From a virus, in the IMG/VR virus record IMGVR_UViG_3300021964_000295, positions 1 through 31,792 of that record: DNA of 31,792 nt; one strand, given 5' to 3'. Position numbers and translations under genes: made by a program. The notes under the pieces are model-generated. The model searched no databases, was not told where the DNA came from, and saw nothing but the letters and a program-made list of their open reading frames with translations. Below, one piece after another: positions 3,569 through 21,833 of the stretch (its first letter is position 1; each line of letters opens with the position of its first letter).

Positions 3569-3817
3569 TTACGCAGTGTAAGCTTTACCTGCTGTAATAG
3601 CAGCGTTAGCAGCAGTCATGTCTTCACTTCCCCAATCGCTTTTAGCAACCATTAGTTCTAAGTGTTCAACATTTCTATCTACAGTAGCTTGTTTGTCTTC
3701 AGCAGACTCATCAGCCATTTGTGTACCACCAATGATACCATTGATTAAGTCAACAGAATGACCCATAGCAGTGTAGTCTTGTGCTAACTGTTCTGCATCT
3801 CTTGTTTCTTCTGACAT
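3569..3817 (-). CDS. Conserved hypothetical acidic protein (82 aa)
   Basis: It begins MSEETRDAEQLAQDYTAMGH and is strongly acidic and helical, with a conserved-looking centre (SVDLINGIIGG) and end (ITAGKAYTA). I recall similar short proteins in marine T4-like phages, but no function. No membrane segment, signal or metal motif is seen. ATG 3817 has a strong AAAGGAG site. A perfect late promoter lies 35 bases upstream, so the gene is likely expressed late with the virion genes. A small virion or assembly protein is a reasonable inference. Confidence 0.7.
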   Translation of the reverse strand: MSEETRDAEQLAQDYTAMGHSVDLINGIIGGTQMADESAEDKQATVDRNVEHLELMVAKSDWGSEDMTAANAAITAGKAYTA

Positions 3818-3860: not shown

Positions 3861-4736
3861 TTACTTTTTACCTCGAATGGACACATAAGCCTTAAAGACT
3901 TCATCAGGATCCACCATGATATTTCGAGGATCGTTTTCTTTAAACTTACTTTCGTTCCATTCATTTTGTTTCATATGATAATGAAGATTGATATTTTGGT
4001 CGTAACCAAACTGATTAAATCGTGTATTTCCCCATAAAACAACACCTTTTGTCTTTGTTGATGCTGAAAAATGATTAATACTAGTGTCAATAGAGATAAA
4101 CCCTTTTGACTTTTTTAACATTTGATGTATCACAGCCCAATGTTCTGTACACTTAATTGTGTTTTGATAACCAGGTTCATTTGGCAGTGTCGTATCAATG
4201 ATTGTTAAATCTTTATATCTCATTTTAATCTTGTCAATAACTTGTTGAGCCAAATAAGGCGAATAGTTACGACCAGGATTAGAACTAACATATTGATTTT
4301 GAGGATTAAACATAACAGGAGATTGACCACCTGTAAACTGAACTAATACGTAATCGCCTGTAACACCATTTTGTGTCAACCATTCGTCTGCCTTTTTTTG
4401 ATGTTGGTCCGTATAAAGTTTTGGCTTCATAGACTCATCATATTCTATATCAAATAATCTACAATAAGATTCTATAATGTGTTCTTTACCAAACACAAAG
4501 TTTGATTTATAAGGTTCACAGTAATGAATATTATCTGATTTTAATAAACGTGGATCGTTTAATGGTATTGTTTGTTGTTCAAAAGCCATAGCGACTTCTG
4601 GATTGCCAGCGTAACAATCAACGTAAGGTGTCCAAATCTGTATTGGCTCACCAGCTTTTTTTGCTAATTTGGGTATTAAGGCAGTAAATGCCGTACATTT
4701 TCCAATGCCACCTTCAATTACATAAGTGTTTAACAT
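3861..4736 (-). CDS. GT9-like (ADP-heptose:LPS heptosyltransferase-type) glycosyltransferase (291 aa)
   Basis: Probable GT-B glycosyltransferase of the family-9 type, which transfers heptose or similar sugars in lipopolysaccharide synthesis. Visible features: an N-terminal 'EGGIGKC' loop (residues 8-14), comparable to the Gly-rich start of GT9 enzymes; a strand YVLVQFTGG at 129-137; and the C-terminal donor-site-like segment around 213-240 (FISIDTSINHFSA, then KGVVLWGNT) with Asp217 and His222 in the places of the GT9 D(T/S)...H motif. At 291 aa it is shorter than cellular heptosyltransferases (about 320-350 aa). GAGGAAA precedes ATG 4736. It lies between virion genes and next to a sulfotransferase, so it may modify fibres or the host surface. 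Donor and acceptor are unknown. Confidence 0.7.
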   Translation of the reverse strand: MLNTYVIEGGIGKCTAFTALIPKLAKKAGEPIQIWTPYVDCYAGNPEVAMAFEQQTIPLNDPRLLKSDNIHYCEPYKSNFVFGKEHIIESYCRLFDIEYDESMKPKLYTDQHQKKADEWLTQNGVTGDYVLVQFTGGQSPVMFNPQNQYVSSNPGRNYSPYLAQQVIDKIKMRYKDLTIIDTTLPNEPGYQNTIKCTEHWAVIHQMLKKSKGFISIDTSINHFSASTKTKGVVLWGNTRFNQFGYDQNINLHYHMKQNEWNESKFKENDPRNIMVDPDEVFKAYVSIRGKK

Positions 4737-4808: not shown

Positions 4809-5606
4809 CTATATTATTTCTGGTTTATAGTTTAATTTTCTAATTTTTTTAATACAAGATTGTGGAATATAACTCATATAATCATATTCTTCTTTTTTAA
4901 TCTCTTTTGTTTTAATAGTATGTAAATTTTCACCATGTATTCCTTTATCCACATACTGAATACCGTTTACAGAAAAAGTATCTAAATCTGTAAAATAGTG
5001 TTTATAATATGGTATTTTTAAAAATTGATAAATTTTCTTTATTTCTATTTCTGTTTGACTTACTAAATGTTCATAACTTACAAAATGAACATATTTCATA
5101 TTTTCTAGTTTAGACATTTGTCTTACACAATGAATACCTGTAATTATATTTGAGTTGTTTTCACCTAACAAATAATTAATCTTATCTTCTCTTGTTAAAC
5201 AATTTTTAAACATATCTTTTTCATTACCTTCTTCAGACCATTTAATAAAAGAAGCTAAAACTTCAAATAAATCTCTCCACAAAAATAAAATTTTTATATC
5301 GTATGAATAATATTTTTTTAATAAAATTATACGACCCTCATCAATTAAATCTCTATTGATAATATATTTTTGTTTCCAGTCTTTAAAATAATTAGGTATA
5401 ATATTTTTTATCACGTTATTCAACGATTTATGATCTGGAAAATTTAAAAAAGTATTTGAAGTTTTTTTATTAGAACAAATATCATGTATCATATCAAATA
5501 CAATACTGTTTGCCGTTGTTGCTATATTTGGATTTTGATTTAATATAGAACCTAACAACGTATTTCCTGCTCTGGGCAATCCAGAGAGAAAAAAAACTTT
5601 TTTCAT
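4809..5606 (-). CDS. Sulfotransferase family protein (265 aa)
   Basis: Predicted PAPS-dependent sulfotransferase, moving sulfate to a sugar or protein hydroxyl. The 5'-phosphosulfate loop is clear near the N-terminus (FFLSGLPRAGNTLL, residues 5-18; Arg12, Asn15, Thr16). The 3'-phosphate-binding motif is at 107-123 (LFLWRDLFEVLASFIKW; Arg111 and Ser119 in the RD......S spacing). A late-family motif is at 176-201 (VSYEHLV, then FLKIPYY). Length suits a single-domain enzyme. It is visibly more AT-rich than its neighbours, with many A/T runs, hinting at separate acquisition. ATG 5606 comes two bases after the stop of the 66-residue gene, and its ribosome site is weak. It lies between fibre genes and a glycosyltransferase. 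The substrate is unknown: fibre glycan, host surface polysaccharide or something else. Confidence 0.8.
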   Translation of the reverse strand: MKKVFFLSGLPRAGNTLLGSILNQNPNIATTANSIVFDMIHDICSNKKTSNTFLNFPDHKSLNNVIKNIIPNYFKDWKQKYIINRDLIDEGRIILLKKYYSYDIKILFLWRDLFEVLASFIKWSEEGNEKDMFKNCLTREDKINYLLGENNSNIITGIHCVRQMSKLENMKYVHFVSYEHLVSQTEIEIKKIYQFLKIPYYKHYFTDLDTFSVNGIQYVDKGIHGENLHTIKTKEIKKEEYDYMSYIPQSCIKKIRKLNYKPEII

Positions 5607-5608
5607 AA

Positions 5609-5809
5609 CTAATCTTTTGTATCTTCTTTTAAATTTTTTACTTCTTCTCGTAAAACATCTGTATAATAGTTTTCAACTATTTGAAGATTAGATATATCTA
5701 TTTGAAGTTCTTTATTTTTAAGTTGGGTTCTTTGAATTTGCTCTAAAGCAATTTTGCCTTTTTTGGATAATTTATTTTCATCCAATTCTTCATCATCTAA
5801 AATAAACAT
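5609..5809 (-). CDS. Small coiled-coil protein of unknown function (66 aa)
   Basis: It has a highly charged, helical sequence (starting MFILDDEELDENKLSKKGKI) with a heptad-like Leu/Ile pattern in residues 22-60, so it probably forms a coiled coil. No known domain is recognised. It resembles in style, but not clearly in sequence, the 73-residue coiled-coil gene at 15413-15634. Its stop is two bases before the sulfotransferase start, so the two are translationally linked, and they share the segment bracketed by the direct repeat. The ribosome site is weak (GTGAG). A late-promoter-like TATAAATT (one mismatch) lies about 20 bases upstream. Confidence 0.6.
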   Translation of the reverse strand: MFILDDEELDENKLSKKGKIALEQIQRTQLKNKELQIDISNLQIVENYYTDVLREEVKNLKEDTKD

Positions 5810-5834: not shown

Positions 5835-5874
5835 TTTATAATGTATATATAAAAGTTTTTTATGATGCGTTTTC
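5835..5874. repeat. Direct repeat copy B (fibre 3' end plus downstream promoter-like region)
   Basis: This is the original-looking copy of the repeat at 4763-4798. It covers the last codons and stop of the 801-residue fibre and the AT-rich gap behind it. On the minus strand it contains TATAAATT, one base off the late promoter. Together with copy A it frames about 1 kb holding the sulfotransferase and the 66-residue gene. Confidence 0.6.
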
Positions 5875-8265
5875 TAATGCCTCTAATCTAACTTTTAAGT
5901 CGTCATTTTCAGTTTTTAATTGTTTGACTGAATTTATTAAATACCAAATAAAATTATCGTTATCTACAGTTAAAACTCCTGTAGATTGTTCTTTTACCAT
6001 CTCAGGCATAATTTCTTGTAATTCTTGTGCTATAACACCTAATTGTACACCTTTTTTATTTACTACGGCTGCATCTGGATTTTCAAAATCTACTACTTCA
6101 TCTTTTGGTCTATATTCAAAATTTCTAATTCTAATTTTTGATATTTTTTCTAAACCATCATTATTATCAACAATATTCTTTTTAATTCTTCTATCAGACG
6201 TAGTGTCCCAAGTTGTTATATTTTTTCCATTAAAAGCACCAGAACTTCCTAAAGCAAAAAATGTTGCTGTGCCTTTTCCTGTAGCGTTATAACCTATAAC
6301 ATTTTCATCATTAATTGTAGCACCACTTGTTTTAGCAAATCCACCTATTAAAATATTCCTTGAACCGGTTGTTAAAATATTATTATAAGATCCTGCACGT
6401 GTTCCTACAATTACATTACCACCACTGCCTCCGTTAATACCACAACCAGCTTGATAACCTATTAGGGTTTGATTATCTGTTGTTGTATTATTAAGACCTG
6501 AATCTGCTCCTATATATACGTTTCTAAAACCTGTAGTTTGTGCACGACCGGCACATGATCCTACAGCTACTGATTCTGTTGCTGTTGTAGATAGTCGTAA
6601 TGCTTGAAAGCCAATTCCTGTATTTCTTTGACCAGTTGTAAGAGTATATATTGATAATTTTCCTACAGCAACATTATCAGATCCTGATGTGTTGTTTTCT
6701 AAAGATTCTCTACCTACAGCTACGTTTCCAGAACCTGTAGTTAATGTTTTTCCAGCTAAACTTCCTAAAGCAGTATTTTCTTCACCCTCTGTATTATTTT
6801 GACCAGCAGAGTTTCCAAAGAAAGCATTTTTACTTCCTGTAGTATTTGATATACCAGCACTAAAACCGACAGCAGTATTTAGAACACCTGTCGTATTAAC
6901 TTTTAAAGATTCTTTTCCTATTGCAGTGTTAGAATATCCACTTGTATTAGTGCACAATGCCTGTCTTCCCATAGCAACATTAGCATAACCTGTAGTGTTA
7001 TCTTTCATAGCTTCTCTTCCAACTGCTGTGTTTTCTGATGCAGTTGTATTAGCACTTAGTGCTTGATAACCTATTCCGACATTAGAACCACCTGTCGTAT
7101 TAGCATTTAAAGAACAGAAACCTACTGCTGTGTTGTTAGAAGCTGTGGTGTTGGCTCTTAATGCACAAGTACCAAAAGCTGAATTATTTGCACCTGTTGT
7201 GTTAAGAAAAAGTGTTTCCCAACCTGCTGCTATGTTGTTGGAAGCTGTTGTGTTACATTGAAGTGAAGCAAAACCTAATGCTGTATTTTGTGTACCTGTT
7301 GTATTAGCGTATAAAGAACCTCTTCCAACAGCAGTATTTTCATCACCAGTAGTATTACTAGTTAAAGAAAATAAACCTACAGCTGTGCTATTTCCACCTG
7401 TAGTGTTAGCACATAAAGAAAAATAACCTACTGCTGTATTATTAACACCTGTCGTATTAGAACATAAAGAATGATAACCAACTGCTGTGTTATTTGAGGC
7501 TGTGGTGTTAGCATTTAAAGAGCATCTACCCATAGCAACATTATTGCTACCAGTAGTATTAGTAGTTAAACTGTCATAACCTACTGCTGTATTATGTAAG
7601 CCTGTAGTATTATTTTTTAAAGATTGATAACCTAAAGCACTATGTCCACCATTTGTCGTATTAGCATTTAAAGATTGAAAACCTACTGCTGTAACTCCTG
7701 AAGCTGTTGTATTAGAATATAAACTACAACCACCTAACCCTACGTTTGATGTTCCTGTCGTATTACTAAATAAAGATTGAATACCAACTGCTGTGTTGTT
7801 GGCAGCTGTGGTATTTACTTTTAAAGCATCTTTTCCAACTGCTGTATTTTGATCGCCTGTTGAGTTAGTAGCCAAAGAACAACGACCTACTGCTGTGTTA
7901 CGAACACCAGAGGTATTAGCTGATAAAGACACATGACCTATAGAAGTATTATCAACTCCAGTAGTATTATTAGATAAAGAAGCTGATCCAATAGCAGTGT
8001 TATTACCACCTGTTAAACTTCCATCATCTAACGCTTGGTTTCCTAAAGCAACGTTAGAAGTTCCTACAGGATAATTACCATCTAGTTTGATTGTGCCATC
8101 TAAAACAACGGCGCCAGTTGTACTAATAGCAATATCACTGGCTAATTTAGCGCCTGTAATCGTGTTATCTAATACGTCTGAGGCAACAACAGTGCCATCA
8201 GCTATCTTTGCTGAATTAATAGCGTCATCTTTTATTGCGCCTGTGTCTATTTTTGTTAATGGCAT
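5860..8265 (-). CDS. Repetitive trimeric beta-roll tail fibre with S74 chaperone, fibre C (801 aa)
   Basis: Predicted receptor-binding or side fibre. Residues 1-45 carry SAKIADGTVVASDVLDNTI and AKLASDI, a linker frequent in marine phage fibres. From about residue 70 to 620 run about 32 copies of a 17-residue unit (consensus NTAVGxxSLxxNTTGxx), related to the head repeats of trimeric autotransporter adhesins, which form beta-rolls. The C-terminus is a peptidase S74 intramolecular chaperone. The motif SDRRIK starts at Ser690, with Lys695 in place of the endosialidase Ser/Lys self-cleavage pair; GVIAQE and a coiled coil (LKTENDDLKVRLEALEN) follow. Cleavage before Ser690 would free a 112-residue chaperone. 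Eleven Cys residues lie mostly inside repeats. The AGGAG site lies within the end of the preceding fibre gene. Confidence 0.88.
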   Translation of the reverse strand: MPLTKIDTGAIKDDAINSAKIADGTVVASDVLDNTITGAKLASDIAISTTGAVVLDGTIKLDGNYPVGTSNVALGNQALDDGSLTGGNNTAIGSASLSNNTTGVDNTSIGHVSLSANTSGVRNTAVGRCSLATNSTGDQNTAVGKDALKVNTTAANNTAVGIQSLFSNTTGTSNVGLGGCSLYSNTTASGVTAVGFQSLNANTTNGGHSALGYQSLKNNTTGLHNTAVGYDSLTTNTTGSNNVAMGRCSLNANTTASNNTAVGYHSLCSNTTGVNNTAVGYFSLCANTTGGNSTAVGLFSLTSNTTGDENTAVGRGSLYANTTGTQNTALGFASLQCNTTASNNIAAGWETLFLNTTGANNSAFGTCALRANTTASNNTAVGFCSLNANTTGGSNVGIGYQALSANTTASENTAVGREAMKDNTTGYANVAMGRQALCTNTSGYSNTAIGKESLKVNTTGVLNTAVGFSAGISNTTGSKNAFFGNSAGQNNTEGEENTALGSLAGKTLTTGSGNVAVGRESLENNTSGSDNVAVGKLSIYTLTTGQRNTGIGFQALRLSTTATESVAVGSCAGRAQTTGFRNVYIGADSGLNNTTTDNQTLIGYQAGCGINGGSGGNVIVGTRAGSYNNILTTGSRNILIGGFAKTSGATINDENVIGYNATGKGTATFFALGSSGAFNGKNITTWDTTSDRRIKKNIVDNNDGLEKISKIRIRNFEYRPKDEVVDFENPDAAVVNKKGVQLGVIAQELQEIMPEMVKEQSTGVLTVDNDNFIWYLINSVKQLKTENDDLKVRLEALENAS

Positions 8266-8273
8266 ACTACTAT

Positions 8274-10883
8274 TTATTCTCCTTTAAGAGTCTTAATTTC
8301 GTTTTGTAAAGTTTCAATTTTTGTGTTTAATTCTTTTATTGCATTGACTAGATACCAAGTGACATTATCAGGATTAACTGACTTAACGCCAGTAGATTCT
8401 GTTTTAACTATATCTGGTAAAATGTCTTCTACCTCTTGAGCAATTACACCAACTTGAACGCCTGGTTTATCAATAGCAGCGTGAGATGGCAGTTCTGTAA
8501 TTTCTTCAGGTGTTCTATATTCAAAGTTTTTAACTTGTAATTGATTAATCTTATCTAAGCCAGTTGTGTTATCTACAATGTTCTTTTTAATTCTTCGATC
8601 AGATGTAGTTGACCAAGATGATGAGTTGTTTCCTTGATAGACACCACCAGAAGAAGGAGCTATAAATCCTGTATTATTACCTTTACCTGTAGCTGTATTA
8701 TTACCAGCAGCTATTACTATTTCACCTGTAGCACCAGAACTTCCTGCTGCCGATAAATATCCTACATAAGTATTAAACGAACCTGTAGTTAAATTTGATG
8801 CTGACTGTCTAAGTATTGCTACATTATATTGACCAGTAGTTATTGTACATCCAGCTAAATAACCTAATATTGCGTTAAAACCACCTGTAGTTACACGAAG
8901 ACCAGCTTCATAGCCAACTGCGGTGTTGTTATTAGGTGAGATATTAGCACATAAAGAAGAAGTACCAACAGCAGTATTACCAGTTCCTGTTGTGTTTGCT
9001 TGTAAAGCCTGTTCACCAATTCCTGTATTACTTGCACCTGTTGTAGTTGTATATAATGCATTTCTACCAACTGCTGTATTAGAATTTGAATTGGTTGCTG
9101 AACATAAAGCCTTATCTCCAATCGCTGTATTGTGTGAACCAGTTGTAGATAATCTAAAAGCTTCTGTTCCAACTGCTGTATTACCTGAACCTGTTGTGTT
9201 TGTACCACCAGTATCATTACCAATATAAACATTATGATAACCAGTAGTAGTTGCAGCACCAGCGCCTAAAGCGTAAGAGCCACCTACAACAGTATTTCGA
9301 GTTCCAGTGGTTAATGATGAAAGAGCAGTTCTTCCTATTGCTACGTTATTTGCTCCAGTAGTTTGAGTTTGTAAAGCGTTATTACCCACTGCAACAGAAT
9401 AGCCGCCTGATGTGTTATAATACATAGTATCTTTTCCAATAGCAGTATTTTGAGTTCCTGTTGTGTTACTTCTTAAAGCACTATCACCAACAGCTGTATT
9501 ACTTGTTGCTGTTGTGTTAGCACATAAAGCAAAAGCACCTAGTGATGTATTATTTGTACCTGTAGTATTTTTACACATCGCCTGTCTACCGATAGCAGTA
9601 TTAGTGTGTCCTGTATTGTTTAATGTTAGTGCTTCTACACCCATTGCAACTGAATCATAAGCAGTTGTACCTGAACAAAATGCAGCAAGTCCGACAGCTA
9701 CATTGTTTGCTCCTGTTGTAAGATTTTGGAGTGCTGATTTACCAACTGCTGTGTTTGAATAACCTGTCGTATTAAGACATAAAGATAGATGACCAACTGC
9801 GGTGTTATTTGAGGCTGTGGTGTTACAAGTTAATGCTCTTGTACCAATAGCTGTGTTACATGAACCTGTTGTAGTTTGCTGAAGTGCTGATCTTCCTAAA
9901 GATACATTACATATTCCAGTCGTATTTTCATATGAAGCATAAGCACCTATAGCTGTATTGTTATCTGCTGTGTTATATCTTAAAGCACAAGTACCTACTG
10001 CTGTAAGTGATGTTCCTGTTGTGTTAGAACATAAAGATAGATAACCTACAGCTGTGTTGTTATCAGCTGTTGTGTTGTTTTGTAAAGCTGATTTACCTAA
10101 TGATGTATTAGCTGTACCTGTTGTGTTATTTAATAAAGTTAAAGAACCTACTGCTGTATTATCATTTGCTGTTATATTACAACCTAAAGCAGCTCTACCA
10201 ATTCCGACATTGTTAGTTCCAGTTGTATTTTTATTTAATGATTCAATTCCTACAGCTGTATTGTTATCTGCTGTTGTGTTACAAAATAATGAACAACGAC
10301 CTAATGCTGTATTTTGAACACCTGTTGTATTACATTTAAGTGTGTGATGTCCGATAGATGTATTACTATGACCTGTTGTGTTGGTTACATTAGATTGAAA
10401 ACCTACAGCAGTATTACAACCACCTGTAGTATTGTTTGAAAGAGCAGAACCACCTAAACCTACATTGTAACTTGCGGTAGTATTTAGATATAGAGCATTT
10501 AGCCCAAGAGCAGTATTATTAACTCCAGTTGTATTATTTGCTAAAGCAATTCTACCTACTGCCGTATTATCATTAGCTATATTACTACTTAGTGACGAAT
10601 ATCCTATAGCAATGTTATTATTTCCAGTTGTATTGACTCTTAAAGCACTTACTCCAATACCAATATTTTGAGTTCCTGTCGTATTGGCACAAAGAGCGTC
10701 TGAACCAACGGCAGTGTTATTGTCTCCTGAAACGTTAGATAACGCATTGTTACCAATCGCAACGTTTGACGCACCAGTTGGAAAATTACCGTCTAACTTA
10801 ATCGCACCATCTAAAACAGTATTACCTGTCGTAGAAATGGCTATATCGGCTTTTAAATTATCTCCTGAAATTTTAGTTGTCAT
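8274..10883 (-). CDS. Repetitive trimeric beta-roll tail fibre with S74 chaperone, fibre B (869 aa)
   Basis: Paralogue of the 801- and 1031-residue fibres. It lacks the N-terminal beta sandwich and most of the AKIADG linker of its relatives: after MTTKISGDNLKADIAISTTG it goes directly to the shared LDGAIKLDGNFPTGASNVAI segment. About 40 repeats of 17 residues occupy residues 30-700. The S74 chaperone starts at Ser761 (SDRRIK, Lys766) and closely matches fibre C (VDN..GL.KI, NFEYR, GVIAQE), ending in a coiled coil. It has 18 Cys, nearly all at variable repeat positions, the most of the three. ATG 10883 has an AGAGAG site. GATAAATA (one mismatch to the late promoter) is 16 bases upstream. How it attaches to the particle is not visible. 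Confidence 0.88.
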   Translation of the reverse strand: MTTKISGDNLKADIAISTTGNTVLDGAIKLDGNFPTGASNVAIGNNALSNVSGDNNTAVGSDALCANTTGTQNIGIGVSALRVNTTGNNNIAIGYSSLSSNIANDNTAVGRIALANNTTGVNNTALGLNALYLNTTASYNVGLGGSALSNNTTGGCNTAVGFQSNVTNTTGHSNTSIGHHTLKCNTTGVQNTALGRCSLFCNTTADNNTAVGIESLNKNTTGTNNVGIGRAALGCNITANDNTAVGSLTLLNNTTGTANTSLGKSALQNNTTADNNTAVGYLSLCSNTTGTSLTAVGTCALRYNTADNNTAIGAYASYENTTGICNVSLGRSALQQTTTGSCNTAIGTRALTCNTTASNNTAVGHLSLCLNTTGYSNTAVGKSALQNLTTGANNVAVGLAAFCSGTTAYDSVAMGVEALTLNNTGHTNTAIGRQAMCKNTTGTNNTSLGAFALCANTTATSNTAVGDSALRSNTTGTQNTAIGKDTMYYNTSGGYSVAVGNNALQTQTTGANNVAIGRTALSSLTTGTRNTVVGGSYALGAGAATTTGYHNVYIGNDTGGTNTTGSGNTAVGTEAFRLSTTGSHNTAIGDKALCSATNSNSNTAVGRNALYTTTTGASNTGIGEQALQANTTGTGNTAVGTSSLCANISPNNNTAVGYEAGLRVTTGGFNAILGYLAGCTITTGQYNVAILRQSASNLTTGSFNTYVGYLSAAGSSGATGEIVIAAGNNTATGKGNNTGFIAPSSGGVYQGNNSSSWSTTSDRRIKKNIVDNTTGLDKINQLQVKNFEYRTPEEITELPSHAAIDKPGVQVGVIAQEVEDILPDIVKTESTGVKSVNPDNVTWYLVNAIKELNTKIETLQNEIKTLKGE

Positions 10884-10899
10884 TGTTCTCTCTTATTAC

Positions 10900-10907
10900 T
10901 ATTTATC
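10900..10907 (-). promoter_or_regulatory. Candidate late promoter GATAAATA
   Basis: One mismatch to TATAAATA on the minus strand, just after the stop of the 198-residue gene and 16 bases before the 869-residue fibre start. That spacing matches the perfect late promoters of this window. Confidence 0.45.
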
Positions 10908-11504
10908 TTAATTAAATAATTCCCTTATTTGTATGGCAACACCAGAAGCAGGCGCTGTGCCAAACGTTAATGTTGTACCTGAAATCGTATAATCGGTTGT
11001 TGGTGTTTGCAATACACCGTTTTCTGTTACTAATACTGTATCAACCGTTACGCCATCGGTCACTGTAAATCCTGTTGTCGAGCCATCACCTGTGGCTGTT
11101 CTTGTGGTAGCAGCACCGATTAAATTTTGTCTTGTAATCTTTTTTAATGATGTCGTTGATGTATCATATAAAAGTAAAAAGTCGCCATCGTTTGCTGTTT
11201 CAGCTAATTCTGTTTGATTGGTAATTGAGTTCGTTCCAATCGTAGGTACGTCTAACGCAATACCTAAAAAGATAACAAACGTAGAAGCGCCAGCATCTGG
11301 TGCTTCAGAAAAGACAATAGAAGATCCACCACCTGAAAGAGTGTAAGCAGTCACAGGCTCTTGTGGAACGCCAGCAACGGATACTAAAATAGCAGATTCA
11401 GAACCAACCGCATAGTCCAATGAGAACGTAGTGGTACTACCATCAGGAGTGATGTTTTGTTTCTCATAGGCGCCCCAAGCGGGTGTTCTTCCGAGATAAG
11501 CCAT
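10908..11504 (-). CDS. Tail-fibre-associated protein with two beta-sandwich beads (198 aa)
   Basis: The protein has two similar beta-sandwich domains. The first (residues 1-90) opens MAYLGRTPAWGAYEKQNITP with a DGSTTTFSLDYAVGSESAIL stretch. The second (residues 135-198) contains TGDGSTTGFTVTDGVTVDTV, then GVLQTPTTDYTISGTTLTF. The same bead forms the N-terminus of the 1031-residue fibre (MAYLGKSP start) and the C-terminus of the 290-residue protein at 23342-24214. A short linker (residues 95-130: NSITNQTELAET, then LLLYDTSTTSLKKITR) joins them. Likely an adaptor that docks fibres or a small fibre itself. Its ATG overlaps the stop of the 1031-residue gene (TAATG), with a strong GAGGGAAG site. 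Confidence 0.75.
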   Translation of the reverse strand: MAYLGRTPAWGAYEKQNITPDGSTTTFSLDYAVGSESAILVSVAGVPQEPVTAYTLSGGGSSIVFSEAPDAGASTFVIFLGIALDVPTIGTNSITNQTELAETANDGDFLLLYDTSTTSLKKITRQNLIGAATTRTATGDGSTTGFTVTDGVTVDTVLVTENGVLQTPTTDYTISGTTLTFGTAPASGVAIQIRELFN

Positions 11505-14500
11505 TAATTACTTCCCTCTAAAGCATCTAATCTTGCTTTAATTGATTCATTTTCAGATTTTAATTCATCATTTTCAGTTTTTAATTCTTTTATTGCATTG
11601 ACTAATACAGGAACTAATCTTTCATATTTTAAACCATAAGCTGTTTCATCAGCATTTATATTAGCAAATAACATATCGTTTTTGTTATTGCCAAAACCAA
11701 TTTCATTCTCTAATGCTAATACGTCTTGTGCCATAAAACCAATATGAAGTTTTGGTCTTTTTTTACTTCCATCAGGAACTGCATTTAATACATCTTCTGA
11801 TGTTGCATCTTTTGAAACATACCAACTTCTTCTATCCCATTTGTAAGTCTTAGGGTTTAATTTTGTTACAAAATCTAAACCATGAGTAAAATCTTCTATA
11901 TCTGTTTTATCTCTTTTATCTGATGAAGAAATTGTTGTATCTGCACAATATAAATCATTTGTATTATTATCACCAAGAACAACATTATTAGAATCAGTAG
12001 TAATTAATCCAGATGGAGAGGTTGCTCTACCAGAATCATTACCTAATAAAAGGTTATTACTACCAGTTGTTACAGATATACCTGCTCCTTGTCCAACTGC
12101 TGTATTTTTTTGACCTGTTGTAACAGATTGAAGTGCAGCACCACCAAAAGCATGATTTTTAAAACCAGTTGTGTTACATTTTAAAGCACAAAAACCTATT
12201 GCCGTATTTTCTGTAGCAGTTGTATTAGAATATAAAGCACATTCTCCTACAGCAGTATTTTGACTACCTGTTGTATTTAAAAAAAGTGCTTGAAGGCCTG
12301 CCGCTGTATTACAATGACCTGTTGTGTTACAAGCAAGTGCAAGATAACCTGTAGCTGTACCATAATTTCCTGTTGTATTAGCCTGAAAAGCATTTGTACC
12401 TAATCCTGTGTTTCCTGTACCTGTAGTAGTAGCTGTTAAAGCTTGATAACCTACTGCTGTGGTCTGTCCACTTGTTGTTAAAGCATCTAAAGCATTAGTA
12501 CCTACTGCTACGTTTTGAGTTCCTGTCGTATTAGCTCTTAAAGATTGATAACCAACTGCTGTATTATTATTAGCTGTTGTTAATGATTCAGCTGATGATC
12601 TACCCAAAGCGACATTGTAACAACCTGTTGTTAAATTTTTTAATGATTCTGTACCTATAGCAGTATTTAAATCTCCTGTTGTACAATCTTCCAATGCAAG
12701 ATCACCTACTGCGGTATTTGCATCTCCAGTAGTGTTTGATGCTAAAGCACATCTTCCAACAGCAGTTCCTCTTGATGCTGTCGTATTAGACCTTAAGGCA
12801 CATCTACCTACTGCTGTGTTGTTATCTGCTGTGGTGTTACATTGTAAGGCATTATTTCCTAAAGCAGTATTACTTGCTCCTTCAGTATTTCCCAACATAG
12901 AGTTTTTACCAATTGAAGTATTATTTGCTCCTATAGTGTTAGCTATTAAAGCTTCTCCACCTACTGCTGTATTGTCTGAACCTGTTGTATTATTTCTTAA
13001 AGAACAAAATCCAACTGCTGTGTTAGTTGATGCTGTGGTGTTTTGTGATAAAGCACCTAAACCAATTCCGACATTAGCAGTTCCAGTAGTGTTATATTGT
13101 AATGCACCAGTTCCTAATCCTGTATTGTTACTTGCTGTTGTATTACTTTGTAATGTATTTTTTCCTACCGAAACATTATCTGCACCTGTCGTATTATCAG
13201 TTAAAGATTGAAAACCTACTGCTGTATTGCTTGAGGCTGTGTTAGAACTTAGAGAATCTGAACCAAAAGAAGTGTTAAAGTTTCCTGTTACATTAGAGCA
13301 TAATGACTCTCTGCCAATAGCTGTGTTACTACTTCCTGTTGTATTAGAAAATAAAGAAGCATAACCTACAGCTACATTAGAAGCAGTTGTATTATTTGTT
13401 AATGCTTGATAACCAACGGCAGTGCTATAGTTACCAGTGGTATTACTTGCTAAAGAATATGCACCTAAAGTTACATTTGCTATTCCTGTCGTATTAGTAG
13501 TTAAAGATTGAAAACCTACGGCTGTGTTGTCGGATGCTGTGTTTGCTTCTAAGGCTTGATTTCCCAAAGCTGTATTATTAGCACCAGTTTGATTTGACAA
13601 TAAAGCTAATTGACCAAAAGCAACATTATCATTTGCTGTAGTATTAGCTTCTAATGCTCTCATACCTACAGCAACATTATTTGAACCTGTTGTGTTACAT
13701 TGTAAAGCATCTTTTCCAATAGCAGTTAATGATGTTCCTGTTGTATTTACTTGTAATGAAGACAAACCTACAGCAGTATTATCAAAACCTGTCGTATTAG
13801 CACATAAAGATGACGAACCAACTGCTGTATTGCTTGAAGCTGTGGTGTTAGAAAATAATGACCGTACTCCTAATGCTACGTTATTAGAACCTGTTGTATT
13901 ACATTGTAAAGAACCTCTACCTAATCCTGTGTTATTAAAACCTGTTGTATTAGCCAATAAAGATGCACTACCGATTCCTGTATTACAATTACCTGATTCA
14001 TTATTACTTAAGGCACTTCCACCAATAGCAGTATTATTAACACCAGTTAAACTTCCATCATCTAATGCAGCACCACCTAAAGCAACATTACCTGTACCTG
14101 TTGGATAATAACCATCTAGTTTGATTGTGCCACCATCAAATGATAAACTACCTGTAGAAGTAATATCAATATCACTGGCTAGTTTAGCGCCTGTAATTGT
14201 ACCGTCACCAACATCAGCGGCAATTACAGTACCGTCGGCAATCTTTGCTGAAGTAATGGCACCGTCTTGTACTTTAGCAGTTGAAACTGAATTATCAGCA
14301 GGAACAACCACAGTGGTTGGCTCTGCTGAAATAATGACATAAATTTCTGAAGCAGCTGGTGGAGCAGCAGTAAAAGTTAATTGAGTAGCGTTACTACTTC
14401 CATCTAATTCTATGGTATAAGCTTTGCCCGAACCTGGCTCTTGTCTTACGTTATCAACAAAGACTTGTACATCATTTGGACTACCTACAAAAGCAGCACG

Positions 14501-14599
14501 AGAAAGTGTAAAGACAAGTGTCGATCCATCTCCAGTAAAGGTGTCTTTAACTGAAAATGATCTAAAAATTTCTGTTGGACTTTTACCTAAGTATGCCAT
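11504..14599 (-). CDS. Repetitive trimeric beta-roll tail fibre with distinct S74 chaperone, fibre A (1031 aa)
   Basis: The largest of the three fibres. Residues 1-95 are a beta-sandwich bead (MAYLGKSPTEIFRSFSVKDT at the start) shared with the 198-residue protein, probably the attachment part. Residues 100-145 hold AKVQDGAITSAKIADG and AKLASDI linkers. About 41 repeats of 17 residues follow (about 165-850). The S74 chaperone starts at Ser893 (SDKRDK, Lys898) but belongs to another lineage than in fibres B and C. It has GLDFVTKLNPKTYKWDRRSW, then IGFMAQDV, a longer insertion and GLKYERLVPVLVNAIKELK, with a terminal coiled coil. Self-cleavage would free 139 residues. It has 17 Cys, mainly in repeats. 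The AGGAAA site precedes ATG 14599, and the next gene overlaps its stop. Confidence 0.88.
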   Translation of the reverse strand: MAYLGKSPTEIFRSFSVKDTFTGDGSTLVFTLSRAAFVGSPNDVQVFVDNVRQEPGSGKAYTIELDGSSNATQLTFTAAPPAASEIYVIISAEPTTVVVPADNSVSTAKVQDGAITSAKIADGTVIAADVGDGTITGAKLASDIDITSTGSLSFDGGTIKLDGYYPTGTGNVALGGAALDDGSLTGVNNTAIGGSALSNNESGNCNTGIGSASLLANTTGFNNTGLGRGSLQCNTTGSNNVALGVRSLFSNTTASSNTAVGSSSLCANTTGFDNTAVGLSSLQVNTTGTSLTAIGKDALQCNTTGSNNVAVGMRALEANTTANDNVAFGQLALLSNQTGANNTALGNQALEANTASDNTAVGFQSLTTNTTGIANVTLGAYSLASNTTGNYSTAVGYQALTNNTTASNVAVGYASLFSNTTGSSNTAIGRESLCSNVTGNFNTSFGSDSLSSNTASSNTAVGFQSLTDNTTGADNVSVGKNTLQSNTTASNNTGLGTGALQYNTTGTANVGIGLGALSQNTTASTNTAVGFCSLRNNTTGSDNTAVGGEALIANTIGANNTSIGKNSMLGNTEGASNTALGNNALQCNTTADNNTAVGRCALRSNTTASRGTAVGRCALASNTTGDANTAVGDLALEDCTTGDLNTAIGTESLKNLTTGCYNVALGRSSAESLTTANNNTAVGYQSLRANTTGTQNVAVGTNALDALTTSGQTTAVGYQALTATTTGTGNTGLGTNAFQANTTGNYGTATGYLALACNTTGHCNTAAGLQALFLNTTGSQNTAVGECALYSNTTATENTAIGFCALKCNTTGFKNHAFGGAALQSVTTGQKNTAVGQGAGISVTTGSNNLLLGNDSGRATSPSGLITTDSNNVVLGDNNTNDLYCADTTISSSDKRDKTDIEDFTHGLDFVTKLNPKTYKWDRRSWYVSKDATSEDVLNAVPDGSKKRPKLHIGFMAQDVLALENEIGFGNNKNDMLFANINADETAYGLKYERLVPVLVNAIKELKTENDELKSENESIKARLDALEGSN

Positions 14600-15635: not shown

Positions 15636-18600
15636 TTATACAGCTAAAGCAATTCCTCTCATATCTTTTACAATTGGAGGTGTTGCCGAGTTAGTTCCTT
15701 TTAAAACAATTTTAAATTGAAAAGTTGAATATTCTGTTAAATTATCAGCAGTATATTTGTATTCTCTAAATTCATCTTCATCTTCAGCAGGCGTTACAGC
15801 AATATCTTCTTCACCGGCAGTATTAAAAGGTATCCAACCAAGTGTGTTAATATCTCTTACTTCTTCCGAAGAAGTTAAACGATAGAATACACGAATACTT
15901 GCTGTTGATTGAACATTAGCAGTCAATCTTAAATCAATTGACTCAGATGTGTTTTCTAAAGTAATAGGTCTTGTACAATACACAGCAGCCGTTGATGTAC
16001 CTGTAGCTGCCGTATCGTCAACAAAATCAGGTGTGTTTCCTGATGTTGGACTGTTTAATCTATTTTGAACAGCAATACCACTTATTCTTTGAACATCAAT
16101 TACAGGCGATAATTTTGTATTTGTTGTTGTTAATGAAGCATTAACAAATAAAGATTTACTACCTGACATTTCATTTGTTTCATTTATACCACTTGCGACC
16201 ATTTGAGGTGCGTCAAAGTAAATATTATCACCAACTGAAATAGGTATTTGATTAGCGGCAGTTGTTAAACTAAATTCTGATTGTGATGTAGAATGTATAG
16301 ATTTTCCTGATGTTGGTCTCATTGTGTAAGTAATACCTGTTTCAGGAACAGTTAATGTTTGAATGTTAACGTTCATTACATCTATCATTCTGTTTTCTGT
16401 AGCTCGAATATCTGAACCGCCTGTATCACCTGTAGCAGTCGCACTAGATGAAACGGTAATATCATAACTATCTAAAGTTATATTTGAAATACTTGTGTGT
16501 GTAGCATTAATTTCAGAACTTGGAATTCCGTTTAATGTTCCTGAAGTAACACCAGAAATTGTAACATTGTTATCAGTACCGTGCATTCCATGATTTGGAT
16601 GGAACACTCTAATCACATTTGAAGTATTTGTTGTTCGTAAAGCATTATATCGTAATGGCACGGTTGGTAATTCTTTATTCACAAAAGTAACATTACCTGT
16701 AACATTACTAAATTCAGCACGATTAATTTTAAATTTAATATCTTCGTTTTGTTCTGCCGTCCAAGTTGAACCGTTTTGTGATTTAAACATCACACCAGCG
16801 TATGGTTGTTGTGATATTGTTCGATCAGAACCAACTTGATTTTGTCCTATTCGTGCCACCCAACAATTATAATCTTGTGAGTTTGCTAATAACACAAAAG
16901 AATATTCAACGTTTTGTTGTATGTACACAGGACTTGGAAATGTAAATCTTGTTGCTACGCTACTATCTGAACTTACATTGACATCTTCAGGATTTAATAT
17001 AACTTCAGCAAATGGCAATATTCTAGGAGCAGGATAACCATTAGCAGTTTCTCTTATCTGTAACGTAATAGGCACATTATCATCTTTTGATTGAAAGTAA
17101 ATATCAATAGATGTTAAAAATAATCCACCAGGATCATCAAGTAAAAATGTTTGTGCTAAAGGATCCCACCAACCAACAACAGCATCACTTTCTTGTGTTG
17201 ATGTTCTTGTAACTCGTCTTCTTTCTGTAACGTTTTGTCTAACAACTTGTGCTTCTCTTGTAGAAACAACGGTGTTTTGTACAGTTTCTAAACTTCCTTG
17301 TGCCGTATAATCTGCTTCTGCTGATGTAGCAACCTCAGAATTTCTATCATCTGTTGATGAACTTGTTAACCTAAAGACTCTTTTACCTGTTCGCCATCTT
17401 GGGACAGTAGGAGCAGATCCTTGAGGAAATCTTCTAGCATTTCTATTTGAAGCATCTGGTATTGTAAATGTTCCTGTTAACTCACCTTTAGAGTTTGAAA
17501 TAAACGGACCACCTGCTGAAGCATCACCTGTTTTTGTACAATAATCTGAAATTGCTATATCATCAAAGAAAGGAAACACTCTTGTATTTGGTTTTAATCT
17601 TTTTGCTGTAAATGTAATTGTTCTACTTCTAATAAATGGAATAAACGCAACGTTTAAAACTCTATCACCAAGTGAACGTCTAACAACTCTTGGAACAACA
17701 GTTGTTCTCACACCTGTTCTGGATTGTCCAACAACTTGTGATGTTGTTGTAACTACTCTTTGTGTAATAGCTCTAACACCCTTACCACCGTGTGTACCTG
17801 TTCCTCTTCTAGGATTTTCAGCTCTCCAAAATTGTTCTCGTATTCTATTACCAGCTTGTGTTGAAGTTTCATTAGGAGCGCCTACCCAAAAATCTTGCCA
17901 TTCATTCCATACAGTTCCTTGTGAAATACTTGTAGAGTTAGCAGGCAATCCTCTTTCTGCCAACATAGTATCAAATGAACCTTGTTGGTTAATAACTAAA
18001 TCTGGTCTTCTTCTTGTTTCTTTCCATTCGTCTGTAGATGGATTTAAATCAATTGTACCTACCCAAGTAAATACGTTAAATGGATTAACGTTAACAAACT
18101 TACTAGCATATTGTTGTTCAACAGCTGTGACTTCCGTATAAGGTAAAGTAATTAAATCACCTGTTTTTTTATAATTTTGTGATGTTCGATCTGTGTCTGT
18201 AATCAAAGTATCATCACTAGCACTTCCGTCAGTTGTTTTAGTTCCTGTTGAATTAGCTTCAATAAATTGAATACTCTCAGAATCAAAAGTTGGGTGTAAT
18301 TCACCTTTTGACATATCCATAGAAACTTTATAATCTGGATTACCTACATCACCAACTCCGTGACCTGTAAAGTCATCAACAATAAATCCATTTTTAAATC
18401 TATCAAAACCGTTTGCGTCTTGTATTTGTAATGATGAAGCCTGAGTTTCTAATAAAGATAATTGAGTATAATATTCGATATTGTCAATTCTTCTTTCCAA
18501 TTTACCAATATCTCTCATTGTATATCTTCGATTATCAACTGTTTCAATTTCTATTTCATCTGGATCTAAAGTGTATGCTTTAATATACAGTGTGTATAAA

Positions 18601-21600
18601 TGCATAGCATTTTCTAATGCTTTTGGATACGGTGGGTTTAACGCCGCTGAACCTTTTGAAATTTTAAAGTTGCCGTCTTTGTCTAAGAAAATTTTATCTA
18701 TTCTTGGTAAGTAATATTCTAAATCACAAGTTAAACTTGTGTCAAATTTAACAACGTCAACAAGTGAAGCACCTGTGCCATCAAAACTTCTATCTTGTCC
18801 ACCTGAATTAATTGTAGAAGCATCATCTACTCTTGGTCTAAAGTCTAAACAATCTCTTAATCTAAAACGACCGCCTGTAGTATCTGAAAAATAATCTGGT
18901 ATATCAGCGTAATTGATAGAAGCATATGAATCAACATCAAAATAATCACCAGCACCGTGTGTATAATAAGCAAAACTAACTAATACTCTACCTGTTGGTG
19001 CCAATTCGCCTGTTTTTAATTTTAATCGACCAATGTCATAGAAGTTATCTCTTTGACCTGTGTCTAAATCAAATCTGTTTGTAATATCGGTGTCTGATGT
19101 TGTCGCATTGGTAGAAAAATCTGCTGACATATAAACGTTATTAATTTGATAAACGTCAGCTTTACCTAATCCAATAACACCTGATTCAATTTCAGTTTGA
19201 TCTGTTTTTTGTACAGTTGTTGTCGTAGGTGTTTTTGTTTTTGAACCAGCTAATTGTCTGTTAATTGTAGCAATTACTTTAATTTCAGCACCAGCACCAT
19301 AAGTAGAACCGTAATCAAGTGTTAATGTTGTATCTCCACTAACTAAAGCAAATATAGGATTTCCGTCATCATTATTACCTGATGTTGTTAATACATCACC
19401 GTTAGTAAGTGAACCACCACCTGATATAACTGAAACAATATAGTCAACATCACTTTGTCCAACAAAGTTTTCATTAGCTCCTGTATTAAATGTAACTTGT
19501 CCAGATACTAATGTTCCAACAAACTGTCTTCGTATTTCATAATTTGTATCTGTTAAACCAGAATTAGCAGTTGTTTTTAAAGTTTTAACATTTGAAAATG
19601 GCAGTCTAAAGATGGCTGTATTTCTAGCAGGATCTTGTATTTTACCTCTTTGTCTTGTAACAACTGTTTTTGTTGATACATCACTACCACCAACAGCAGT
19701 CGATAATTCTAATTGTGTATTGGATATAATAGATTCAACTAATCTGGTAACTGAGTTTCCAGCATCAGTTGTAAATTGAATAGAGTCGCCTATTCTTAAT
19801 TCTTCATTAAATAAAGTACCAAAACCTGTAACTGTTGTTCCACTATTTGCTACTGATATTGTTCCTAATAATTCTAAATTAGAGCCGTATGTAGCAGTCG
19901 TATCAGCGTTAGCAGCATAGATTGGCGAACCTGCCATATGTAAAGATTTAACAAATGAGAAATCAAAAGTAGTAACACCTTTAAATCCTACAGCATCAGC
20001 TTGTACAGTTGCTGTATTACTAGATGTTCCGCCTGTAATTGTTTCTCCTGGTGAAAACTCTCCAATAACACTTGATACAACAACAACACCGTGAGCGACT
20101 GTACCACCAGAACTCCATGCTGAAAAGCCTGAAGTATCTATCGAAGTCGTACCGTCTGTATCATATAATTCAAAGCTATTTGTGCCTGGATTTCTTACTG
20201 TATAAACGTTACCGTTTAATTCTGTCATACCTGAAACGCCAGTAATTGTAACTTGTTGACCTTCTTTAAAGTTGTGTCCTGTGACTGTGACTACTCCAGG
20301 ATTTGCTTGTGTGACACCTGAAGGACCAGATATAGTTCCACTTTCTGTTGTTGAAATTGATTCAAATGTAGCAGTAGCACCTGAAGTACCACCTGTAATA
20401 ACTTCTCCAGCAGGTGTAAATGATTGAGCAGTTGTAATGTTCAAGTGTGTGAACATATTAATATCAAATAGATAATGACGATAGATCGAAGAAGTTGCTA
20501 ATATAGCAGCAGATGCCGTTCCTGAAACTTTTTCAAATCCTCTAGTTTTTGCTCTACCAATAGTAGGAACACTTGAACCTGATGCAGAAGGAGGTGTTGA
20601 AGCACCTGTTTTTTCTACATCATACAAATTTACTAATTTAAATGCTTCAGTCGATCCTGAAACTTGACCAACATCTGGAGCACCGTAAATGTCTGTTACG
20701 TTTACATAGTTTCGAATATCGTAACGTGTGTTAAAATTATTTTTTGTTTCAAACTCTCTAGCTTTATCAATGTCAACGTAAGTTGTTCCAATAGTTTCAA
20801 TTTCATAACCTTTGACATATGCTTTTCCTGGAGAAAAACCAGCAGCTAATTTAGCTTCATCTCCATCATCAGCAGATGTATATACACCTCTATTACCAGC
20901 ACCGTCATCTAAATGTTCTCTAATTTCTAACTCAAAATCTCTAACAGAATAATCACCAGATTCGTCAAATGTTCTTCGAGCAAGTGTATCTTCTAAAACA
21001 GCATAATCAGTTGTTCTTACCTGGTTTTGAATAACTCCATTTTTTAATCTAATTAATTCTACAAAGTTACTATCTTCGGTACTTGTTAAACTTCTTTTTG
21101 CTAAAGTTAAGTTAATTTTAAATCTGTGAGCACCTGGAGCGTTTGTGTTTGAAACACCTTGAGCATTATCATTTAAAGAAGCATCATCATTGGATGTAAT
21201 AAATGATTCAGTAATTTCTAAACCAATACGATAACTAGGTGTGTTTGTGTATTTGTCTAAAATGATTGTTTGTTCATCTACTTGTACGTGAAATCCATTA
21301 ATGTAATAAACACCTTGATTTACATAAGCAGCTGAACCTGTAGCAGTGGCATTTGATGTTTGTAGAGTAACTGTTGTAAGTGTACTATCTGCTAAAACAC
21401 CTGATAAAACTTCAGCATCATTAAATGCTAAATTTGTTCCGTCAGTACCACCGTCAATATATTTTACATATAAAGTATCTGGATCTGTTCCGTCTGTAAC
21501 AACTGCGCCAATTACTTTTGCTTGTAATCCTGTGTCAGCACCTGTAAGTGTAACACCAACAAAATCTGATAAAGAAGTGGCGCCTGTGTAACTTGCGACT

Positions 21601-21833
21601 TTAACAGCATAATAATTAACATCATAACCAGACTCGCCTGGTATTACCATCGCACCTTTTTCAAAAATATGGTCAGATAATCTTTCAATCTGATTTTGTA
21701 AAATGGATTGTGATTGTGTTAATTCTCTCGCCTGTACTGCAAATGATGGTCTAAAAAGAACCCGATGAAACTTTTTGGATTCTGTATAGTCATCATAATA
21801 AGGCGTCAAATTAAAGTCAGTTGGACTTGGCAT
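15636..21833 (-). CDS. Very large baseplate-associated protein, DUF4815 type (2065 aa)
   Basis: The N-terminus (NLTPYYDDYTESKKFHRVLF, then FAVQARELTQSQSILQNQIE) is the hallmark of DUF4815 structural proteins of marine myoviruses, placed at the baseplate or tail-fibre base. Along the chain: beta beads 'F.PGETITGGTSS.TA' (about residues 470 and 590); an E1-FCCH-like bead with VTGHNFKEGQQVTITGVSGM (about 505-580); another bead with FHPNHGMHGTDNNVTISGV (about 1740-1800); a basic segment rich in Arg and Val (about 1355-1420); and a beta-rich C-terminus ending RGIALAV. The position just after gp8 is that of T4 genes 9/10, but I see no direct gp10 similarity. It has a strong GAGGAA site and lies 10 bases after the gp8 stop. 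Confidence 0.85.
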   Translation of the reverse strand: MPSPTDFNLTPYYDDYTESKKFHRVLFRPSFAVQARELTQSQSILQNQIERLSDHIFEKGAMVIPGESGYDVNYYAVKVASYTGATSLSDFVGVTLTGADTGLQAKVIGAVVTDGTDPDTLYVKYIDGGTDGTNLAFNDAEVLSGVLADSTLTTVTLQTSNATATGSAAYVNQGVYYINGFHVQVDEQTIILDKYTNTPSYRIGLEITESFITSNDDASLNDNAQGVSNTNAPGAHRFKINLTLAKRSLTSTEDSNFVELIRLKNGVIQNQVRTTDYAVLEDTLARRTFDESGDYSVRDFELEIREHLDDGAGNRGVYTSADDGDEAKLAAGFSPGKAYVKGYEIETIGTTYVDIDKAREFETKNNFNTRYDIRNYVNVTDIYGAPDVGQVSGSTEAFKLVNLYDVEKTGASTPPSASGSSVPTIGRAKTRGFEKVSGTASAAILATSSIYRHYLFDINMFTHLNITTAQSFTPAGEVITGGTSGATATFESISTTESGTISGPSGVTQANPGVVTVTGHNFKEGQQVTITGVSGMTELNGNVYTVRNPGTNSFELYDTDGTTSIDTSGFSAWSSGGTVAHGVVVVSSVIGEFSPGETITGGTSSNTATVQADAVGFKGVTTFDFSFVKSLHMAGSPIYAANADTTATYGSNLELLGTISVANSGTTVTGFGTLFNEELRIGDSIQFTTDAGNSVTRLVESIISNTQLELSTAVGGSDVSTKTVVTRQRGKIQDPARNTAIFRLPFSNVKTLKTTANSGLTDTNYEIRRQFVGTLVSGQVTFNTGANENFVGQSDVDYIVSVISGGGSLTNGDVLTTSGNNDDGNPIFALVSGDTTLTLDYGSTYGAGAEIKVIATINRQLAGSKTKTPTTTTVQKTDQTEIESGVIGLGKADVYQINNVYMSADFSTNATTSDTDITNRFDLDTGQRDNFYDIGRLKLKTGELAPTGRVLVSFAYYTHGAGDYFDVDSYASINYADIPDYFSDTTGGRFRLRDCLDFRPRVDDASTINSGGQDRSFDGTGASLVDVVKFDTSLTCDLEYYLPRIDKIFLDKDGNFKISKGSAALNPPYPKALENAMHLYTLYIKAYTLDPDEIEIETVDNRRYTMRDIGKLERRIDNIEYYTQLSLLETQASSLQIQDANGFDRFKNGFIVDDFTGHGVGDVGNPDYKVSMDMSKGELHPTFDSESIQFIEANSTGTKTTDGSASDDTLITDTDRTSQNYKKTGDLITLPYTEVTAVEQQYASKFVNVNPFNVFTWVGTIDLNPSTDEWKETRRRPDLVINQQGSFDTMLAERGLPANSTSISQGTVWNEWQDFWVGAPNETSTQAGNRIREQFWRAENPRRGTGTHGGKGVRAITQRVVTTTSQVVGQSRTGVRTTVVPRVVRRSLGDRVLNVAFIPFIRSRTITFTAKRLKPNTRVFPFFDDIAISDYCTKTGDASAGGPFISNSKGELTGTFTIPDASNRNARRFPQGSAPTVPRWRTGKRVFRLTSSSTDDRNSEVATSAEADYTAQGSLETVQNTVVSTREAQVVRQNVTERRRVTRTSTQESDAVVGWWDPLAQTFLLDDPGGLFLTSIDIYFQSKDDNVPITLQIRETANGYPAPRILPFAEVILNPEDVNVSSDSSVATRFTFPSPVYIQQNVEYSFVLLANSQDYNCWVARIGQNQVGSDRTISQQPYAGVMFKSQNGSTWTAEQNEDIKFKINRAEFSNVTGNVTFVNKELPTVPLRYNALRTTNTSNVIRVFHPNHGMHGTDNNVTISGVTSGTLNGIPSSEINATHTSISNITLDSYDITVSSSATATGDTGGSDIRATENRMIDVMNVNIQTLTVPETGITYTMRPTSGKSIHSTSQSEFSLTTAANQIPISVGDNIYFDAPQMVASGINETNEMSGSKSLFVNASLTTTNTKLSPVIDVQRISGIAVQNRLNSPTSGNTPDFVDDTAATGTSTAAVYCTRPITLENTSESIDLRLTANVQSTASIRVFYRLTSSEEVRDINTLGWIPFNTAGEEDIAVTPAEDEDEFREYKYTADNLTEYSTFQFKIVLKGTNSATPPIVKDMRGIALAV

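Follow-up and report, generated by a model that had tools for sequence, protein, structure and literature searches.

Introduction

In this article, I discuss a stretch of DNA of 31,792 bases, the whole of virus record IMGVR_UViG_3300021964_000295 and hereafter the window, which is a pelagimyophage-like (SAR11-type) contig carrying three neighbouring fibre genes built from 17-residue repeats and, beyond them, a gene for a glycosyltransferase (GT), P0006. Across related phages, cysteines at the surface positions of such repeats covary with the GT gene. A sequence-only reading had drawn attention to the fibres at positions 5860-14599; P0006 (3861-4736) lies just beyond that range, and the reading mentioned neither it nor the fibre cysteines.

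The fibre locus

The open reading frames of that reading, three fibre genes of 1031, 869 and 801 amino acids plus one of 198, were confirmed on the minus strand, which also carries every other window gene described here. Fibre 1 (P0001, 1031 amino acids, 11504..14599) consists of an N-terminal attachment part (residues 1-145, 14165..14599, delimited by DNA comparison with a sister contig, L006; L numbers denote compared loci), a linker, an N-cap, about 40 units (array at 12056..14089 by unit scan, with 16 cysteines inside) and an S74 intramolecular chaperone with an SSDKRDK motif (11504..11923). Fibre 2 (P0002, 869 amino acids, 8274..10883) has no N-terminal attachment part, and holds 18 cysteines in its array (8724..10772) and none elsewhere in the protein, whereas fibre 3 (P0003, 801 amino acids, 5860..8265) has a linker and N-cap in common with fibre 1 (N-cap DNA 84% identical) and 10 cysteines in its array (6367..8055); the S74 chaperones of both (8274..8603 and 5860..6198) carry a TSDRRIKK motif. 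Fibres 1 and 2 are separated by P0004 (198 amino acids, 10908..11504), an adaptor-like protein with a weak match to the T7-type tail fibre N-terminal domain (PF03906, 28.4 bits against a cut-off of 25.2, residues 135-195 only), a relative of which occupies the equivalent gene position in L186.

Beyond fibre 3 lie a small charged protein of 66 amino acids (5609..5809), the sulfotransferase P0005 (265 amino acids, 4809..5606; Pfam Sulfotransfer_3, E 2.9e-9, above cut-off), P0006 (291 amino acids, 3861..4736), a GT family 9 (GT9)-like member of a fibre-linked family and itself without a PHROG match, and a conserved protein of 82 amino acids (3569..3817), which follows the GT or, where the GT is absent, comes directly after the fibre. 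On the other side, the next gene upstream of small structural genes encodes a VrlC-type baseplate protein (15636..21833; 62% identical to that of Pelagibacter phage Mosig and 45% to that of HTVC008M). VrlC marks the start of the hypervariable pelagimyophage host-recognition cluster, which contains tail fibres and glycosyltransferases, and YadA-domain proteins were also reported in the pelagimyophage structural operon (PMC7029224). The window has the order expected of such a cluster, from VrlC through the fibres and the sulfotransferase P0005 to the GT P0006.

The units were counted by an iterated position-specific profile scan with shuffled proteins as control, and this gave 106 units of exactly 17 residues (37, 36 and 33 in fibres 1, 2 and 3), where a shuffled protein yields 1.5-2.3. 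Once the units of 16 residues, a single one of 21 and the first unit of P0002 are counted in, the total is about 113, the figure of the sequence-only reading, whose picture of a uniform repeat stands as nearly uniform, with a few units of 16 or 21 residues: 94 of 103 unit spacings are exactly 17, the rest being 33 (17+16), 18 and 38 (21+17), and the 16-residue units have mostly lost one Thr of the N-T-T turn. The consensus is N-T-A-V-G-x-x-A/S-L-x-x-N-T-T-G-x-x, with variable positions 6, 7, 10, 11, 16 and 17. The chaperone ends also held up: all three fibres match Peptidase_S74 (PF13884) at the C-terminus with 43.0, 53.4 and 50.1 bits against a Pfam cut-off of 22, and carry the SD.R.K motif, for which autocleavage and trimer assembly are the predicted role.

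Predicted fold

AlphaFold2 (AF2) modelled the C-terminal half of fibre 3 with one strand per 17 residues (predicted local distance difference test, pLDDT, 77) and the array on its own with two strands in each coil, one spanning unit positions 2-4 and the other 11-12 (pLDDT 66). These two models make a beta-solenoid likely, and I infer that it would be a trimeric left-handed beta-roll; the variable positions fall between the modelled strands, in agreement with their earlier placement at predicted turns. A Foldseek search with the fibre 3 model led from the S74 part to MyRF-ICA and from the solenoid to the trimeric adhesin head BpaC (7o23), the best solved match outside S74 at E 8.5e-4 but with a template modelling (TM) score of only 0.24. 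Against the YadA_head family of Pfam, to which the proposed kinship with YadA-type beta-rolls would point, the fibres gave no match up to E 10. The array-only model gave zero significant matches in a PDB structure search, and the array sequence found no relatives among solved structures, where the S74 domain alone matches MyRF. The predicted fold together with S74 occurs across phages and giant viruses.

How the fibres vary

The same reading had considered a 17-residue array at this copy number in three paralogues to be unusual, and here it has to be set aside: fibre P0003 matches 351 phage records, three PHROG families match the fibre proteins at E <1e-80, and, among the loci selected by similarity, L107 has three arrays in tandem, L113 has five, and L108 encodes the longest protein, of 2540 amino acids. 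Three tandem arrays were accordingly rejected as a rare feature, since similar sets are common; 17-mer arrays occur in bacterial metagenome-assembled genomes as well (Bacteroidota, Verrucomicrobiota and others). P0003 as a single-sequence query against viral contigs found no relatives, and a literature search for a phage beta-roll fibre combining S74 or YadA head repeats found no matching paper.

That reading had further suggested that exchange of units among the three paralogues could alter length and host range, a view of unusual YadA-type beta-roll fibres varying by unit exchange. The near-uniform arrays in three tandem genes invite such a view, and some relatives have higher-order repeats, of four units in L090:9959-12697 (204 nucleotides, 74% DNA identity) and two units in L126:7502-11710 (102 nucleotides, 77%), so in some lineages arrays lengthen by duplicating blocks of units. 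Within the window, however, pairwise DNA identity of units is equal within and between genes (0.541 and 0.540, maximum 0.84), codons at the fixed residues are scrambled, and no co-linear run of four units is common to two genes beyond shuffled order, which led to rejection of unit exchange or duplication among the three genes for recent time. Comparing unit number among relatives gave a divided answer, near-identical pairs of arrays keeping their number and distant ones differing by 17-residue indels. With arrays and tandem sets common and YadA_head unmatched, I regard this explanation as very improbable.

What does vary is the whole distal part. In the sister contig L006, VrlC is 91% identical to that of the window and the start of fibre 1 and the genes upstream are as in the window, the DNA being about 90% identical, flank included, to about position 14166 (codon 145) and 42% identical thereafter; beyond codon ~145 the L006 shaft is of another type, without 17-mers, and the whole distal part has been replaced. 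The break falls within the linker TGAKLASDI, a stretch over which the DNA of fibres 1 and 3 is almost the same. In many marine phages the N-cap GTIKLDGNYPTGTxNVALG stands at the head of the array with unrelated sequence upstream of it; its conservation is 0.64 against 0.16 for the linker. The N-terminal domain of fibre 1 is common to other fibres of the region and absent from fibres 2 and 3, and in L186 and L166 a MANDFKRF gene, a MAYLG/MAYIG fibre and then a P0004-type adaptor are kept while other fibre types are carried. Fibre 1 would carry the virion-attachment domain, and a distal cassette of N-cap, array and S74 is swapped in one piece at the linker. No 17-mer arrays were seen in 80 loci selected by VrlC, many of which end soon after VrlC.

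A fibre-linked glycosyltransferase family

Among phages, fibre 3 is best matched by the Pelagibacter phages HTVC111P and HTVC112P. In each of them the end of the fibre gene overlaps the start of the next gene, a 'putative glycosyl transferase' with 56% (HTVC111P) and 55% (HTVC112P) identity to P0006; these two genes are the only relatives of P0006 among 50,697 phage records. P0006 as a single-sequence query found none in viral contigs, and the family was gathered by searching viral contigs with an alignment of the three GTs, with GT similarity as the sole criterion and 80 of 157 relatives retained. Over all collected loci, a 17-mer fibre lies within 1.5 kb of 86 of the 96 GT open reading frames, mostly -99 to +10 nucleotides upstream on the same strand (L231 and L250 count as near an array, but have too few units for array analysis). 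Several of the ten others have only a few hundred bases upstream (L228, L239, L246, L254, L211); true exceptions in distance are L218, L274 and L108, the GTs of the latter two being among the more divergent. At L218:2202-3101 the GT relative has no adjoining array and sits amid 2OG-Fe oxygenase-like genes and apparent neck genes of a T4-like phage; the fibre that goes with it may be encoded at another place in the host-recognition cluster.

Family members match PF01075 (GT9) at E <=0.01 in 35 of 41 cases (best 1.9e-8), and the C-terminal D-x-x-x-x-H donor motif (D217, H222) is invariant in the 41 sequences and aligned to the D/H motif of WaaC/WaaF. The N-terminal G-D motif is the site of the catalytic Asp in WaaC; where the lipopolysaccharide (LPS) heptosyltransferases have G-D, the family has an invariant G12-K13-C14 (aligned by eye, outside the profile match), which is compatible with a different acceptor. 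An NCBIfam scan of P0006 returned LPS heptosyltransferase models and one unrelated model, all far below cut-off. The GT was not found in plasmids or in three array-bearing bacterial genomes, a weak test. Relatives of the sulfotransferase P0005 occur near the GT in four other loci (L108, L249, L267, L274), all with a divergent GT.

The 82-amino-acid protein (RNVEHLELMVAK core) belongs to a family without a PHROG match that turned up in 100 loci, in most of them as the next gene behind a 17-mer fibre or its GT; it is perhaps a fibre assembly factor, and was rejected as a partner of the GT alone because it also follows fibres without a GT.

Surface cysteines track the enzyme

Here 'surface' cysteine means a cysteine at one of the six variable positions, taken to face outwards from their variability and their place between predicted strands. 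Arrays with a GT have 0.30-1.29 such cysteines per unit (91 arrays) against at most 0.05 in those without (44 arrays), and the separation persists in the subset selected by array similarity (21 GT and 28 GT-less arrays; minimum 0.31 against maximum 0.05). Cysteine makes up 8.4% of the variable positions in the 91 GT arrays and 0.0% in the 44 others (p 1.5e-21), the second-largest residue difference being that of Arg, at 5.5 and 3.6%. In the GT-linked arrays cysteine is nearly confined to positions 6, 7, 10, 11, 16 and 17, at 2.93% against 0.37% outside the arrays of the same proteins; the window has 44 cysteines in its arrays and 2 in the rest of the three fibres, and its other structural proteins contain 0-0.41%. 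Where an array is rich in cysteine and its locus shows no GT, it mostly lies at a contig edge (L116, L120, L106, L100).

These figures bear on a different account, in which the GT modifies the host surface polysaccharide, for superinfection exclusion or receptor masking, and travels with the fibre since fibre and receptor must match. The fold class of the GT is that of the LPS heptosyltransferases, and the many glycosyltransferases of pelagimyophage host-recognition clusters were so interpreted (PMC7029224), but this would leave unexplained why surface cysteines of the fibre track the GT, when other residues change far less, and why unrelated phages have the GT at a nearly fixed place immediately behind fibres of this type. 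I judge it unlikely.

The 82-amino-acid gene comes after the GT in most GT loci and is near the fibre, usually directly after it, in 23 GT-less loci, and a syntenic control is therefore possible: arrays in the order fibre, GT, small gene have 0.32-0.78 cysteines per unit (49 arrays) and those in the order fibre, small gene 0-0.21 (20 arrays), with complete separation. Among named phages, HTVC111P and HTVC112P have 0.40 and 0.44 per unit, against 0-0.08 in Venkman, CRP-1, CRP-7, CRP-831, P-SSM2 and three others. A new scan by way of the 82-amino-acid protein, with a threshold of 0.25 cysteines per unit fixed beforehand, placed 20 of 24 GT arrays at or above it and 23 of 24 GT-less arrays below (43 of 48 agreeing, p 6e-9). 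By positional readings made afterwards, the one GT-less miss (L358) has its cysteines at core positions 8 and 12 only and the low-cysteine GT arrays still have cysteines at variable positions; the GT-less L366 has two cysteines at position 6.

Mere co-descent of cysteines and GT in one phage lineage, with no functional link, is a further possibility to weigh. On a tree of S74 domains, 17 changes of GT state are needed, 8 of them forced by supported branches, and in 8 of 8 supported independent pairs GT and cysteine agree (p 0.008). S74 and arrays can recombine, and what look like switches on the tree could be swaps of S74 domains onto a single lineage of arrays, but change at the variable positions has reached saturation between arrays (about 10% identity), and for that reason cysteines there would decay without selection; the low cysteine content outside the arrays, and the occurrence of one N-cap type both with and without a GT (L104, L110), also speak against co-descent, which I hold to be highly unlikely.

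As to how the cysteines are arranged, units with one cysteine are over-represented (712 against 658 +/- 18 expected), units with three fall below expectation, and pairs at 6/7 and 10/11 are avoided, with no avoidance at 16/17. Such a pattern would be expected if the cysteines were modified individually and not paired in disulfides. The GT could instead act on Asn, Ser or Thr of the N-T-T-G turn, with the cysteines serving otherwise, for example in disulfide cross-links: most units have N-T-T, Thr is somewhat commoner in GT-linked arrays (0.85 against 0.74 at position 13, 0.78 against 0.62 at position 14), and cysteines at the same position in neighbouring units are slightly above chance (108 against 91 +/- 8). 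The motif is nearly as frequent in GT-less arrays, however, and the avoided pairs, the scarcity of three-cysteine units and the scattered positions would suit designed disulfides poorly, making this quite unlikely; a disulfide ladder was likewise not favoured, stacked cysteines being only slightly in excess.

Proposed mechanism and implications

Taken together, these observations point with reasonable confidence to fibres of a pelagimyophage-like virus made of a 17-residue solenoid and S74, exchanged in blocks, with their cysteines as likely targets of P0006. P0006 would glycosylate the fibre, the acceptor probably being surface cysteine. The fibres display cysteine almost only at predicted turn positions, the GT would attach a sugar to the coils, and the sulfotransferase P0005 may decorate that sugar; a sulfated sugar is possible because the sulfotransferase adjoins the GT in the window and lies near it in the four other loci. 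A slightly better than even chance is what I give the fuller proposal that a GT9-like module S-glycosylates turn cysteines to yield a dense, repeated glycan coat, enzyme and surface cysteines being gained and lost together. Such a repeated glycan on the fibre surface could act in receptor binding, shielding or protection.

Several points weigh against this proposal. The cysteine link was found post hoc, by comparing unit composition with and without the GT, and 5 of the 48 arrays of the new scan missed the preset 0.25. The S74 tree is built on few columns, and an S74 domain can part from its array by recombination. In the window itself the GT is 1.1 kb from fibre 3 with the sulfotransferase in between, and cell-surface sugar genes are common in this pelagimyophage region. 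The class assignment is weak, P0006 scoring 19 bits against the PF01075 cut-off of 22, the match to the WaaC/WaaF profile covering 43 columns and the GT family giving nothing but chance matches, no relative, in the PDB. The fold models are of modest confidence. The gene anatomy, the replaced distal part, the linkage of the genes and the covariation of surface cysteine with the GT gene are observed, and from these I infer the fold and trimer, the enzymatic activity, the cysteine acceptor and the role of the glycan.

Few proteins are known with glycosylation on cysteine, and at least 10 predicted cysteine sites on each chain would make such a fibre an exceptionally rich example; no report of a cysteine-linked, fibre-dedicated phage enzyme was found in the open-access literature. 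The usual reading of phage fibres is that of protein alone. If the proposal is true, a glycan invisible to sequence has a part in how some abundant marine phages recognise their hosts, and an unnamed family of phage glycosyltransferases gains a substrate. It is a specific prediction, open to testing in two Pelagibacter phages that are in culture.

Other genes of the window

The small charged proteins at 5609-5809 and 3251-3487 are alike at their starts (I-D-x-x-E-x-x-E/D-x-x-L type), and 17 other loci have a small protein resembling the two downstream of the GT. A protein of 113 amino acids (2907-3248) has a match at E 7e-20 to the PHROG 'L-shaped tail fiber protein assembly', and one of 122 amino acids at the contig end (127-495), with a weak match to Mtd_N (major tropism determinant N-terminal) below the Pfam cut-off, is perhaps another fibre-type gene. 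A small GDGST-type domain recurs in fibre 1 (14165-14599), in the 198-amino-acid adaptor (10908-11504) and in VrlC of L186, and probably also in a gp10-like protein (23342-24214) of the same PHROG; it is possibly a shared docking domain.

Comparison with known systems

The AIDA-I/TibA heptosyltransferases Aah and TibC are GT9-related, are encoded beside a repetitive beta-solenoid adhesin and modify Ser on 19-residue repeats; P0006 differs in that the NCBIfam scan gave no match to that family. The enzymes of S-glycosylation in glycocins belong to another GT family. YadA-type heads (YadA, BpaC) resemble the window arrays as short-repeat beta-solenoids, as in the Foldseek match, and have in common with them a G-x-x-A core motif; the window units are of 17 rather than 14 residues, and end in S74 rather than an outer-membrane anchor.

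Fibres with an S74 endosialidase-type chaperone, such as T5 pb1 (PMC4690869), likewise have a C-terminal S74, a Ser-Asp...Arg...Lys motif and a repetitive part before it, whereas the window shaft is a long 17-residue array with cysteines at turns and a linked GT gene. In glycocins such as pallidocin, a sugar is carried on a cysteine of small bacteriocin peptides (PMC6405829). Mycobacteriophage-encoded glycosyltransferases act on the virion capsid and tail tube (Freeman et al., 2023, as cited in PMC12691614 and PMC12363180) and, going by those citations, the window would differ in that the targets are the receptor-binding fibres of a marine phage, the enzyme is GT9-like and cysteine is the predicted acceptor. 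HTVC111P (gp52-gp53) and HTVC112P (gp48-gp49), whose annotation goes no further than 'tail fibre' and 'glycosyl transferase', differ in their 31-32 kb genomes and in having no sulfotransferase in between, but like the window they carry a cysteine-bearing 17-mer fibre, the GT and the small protein in one run.

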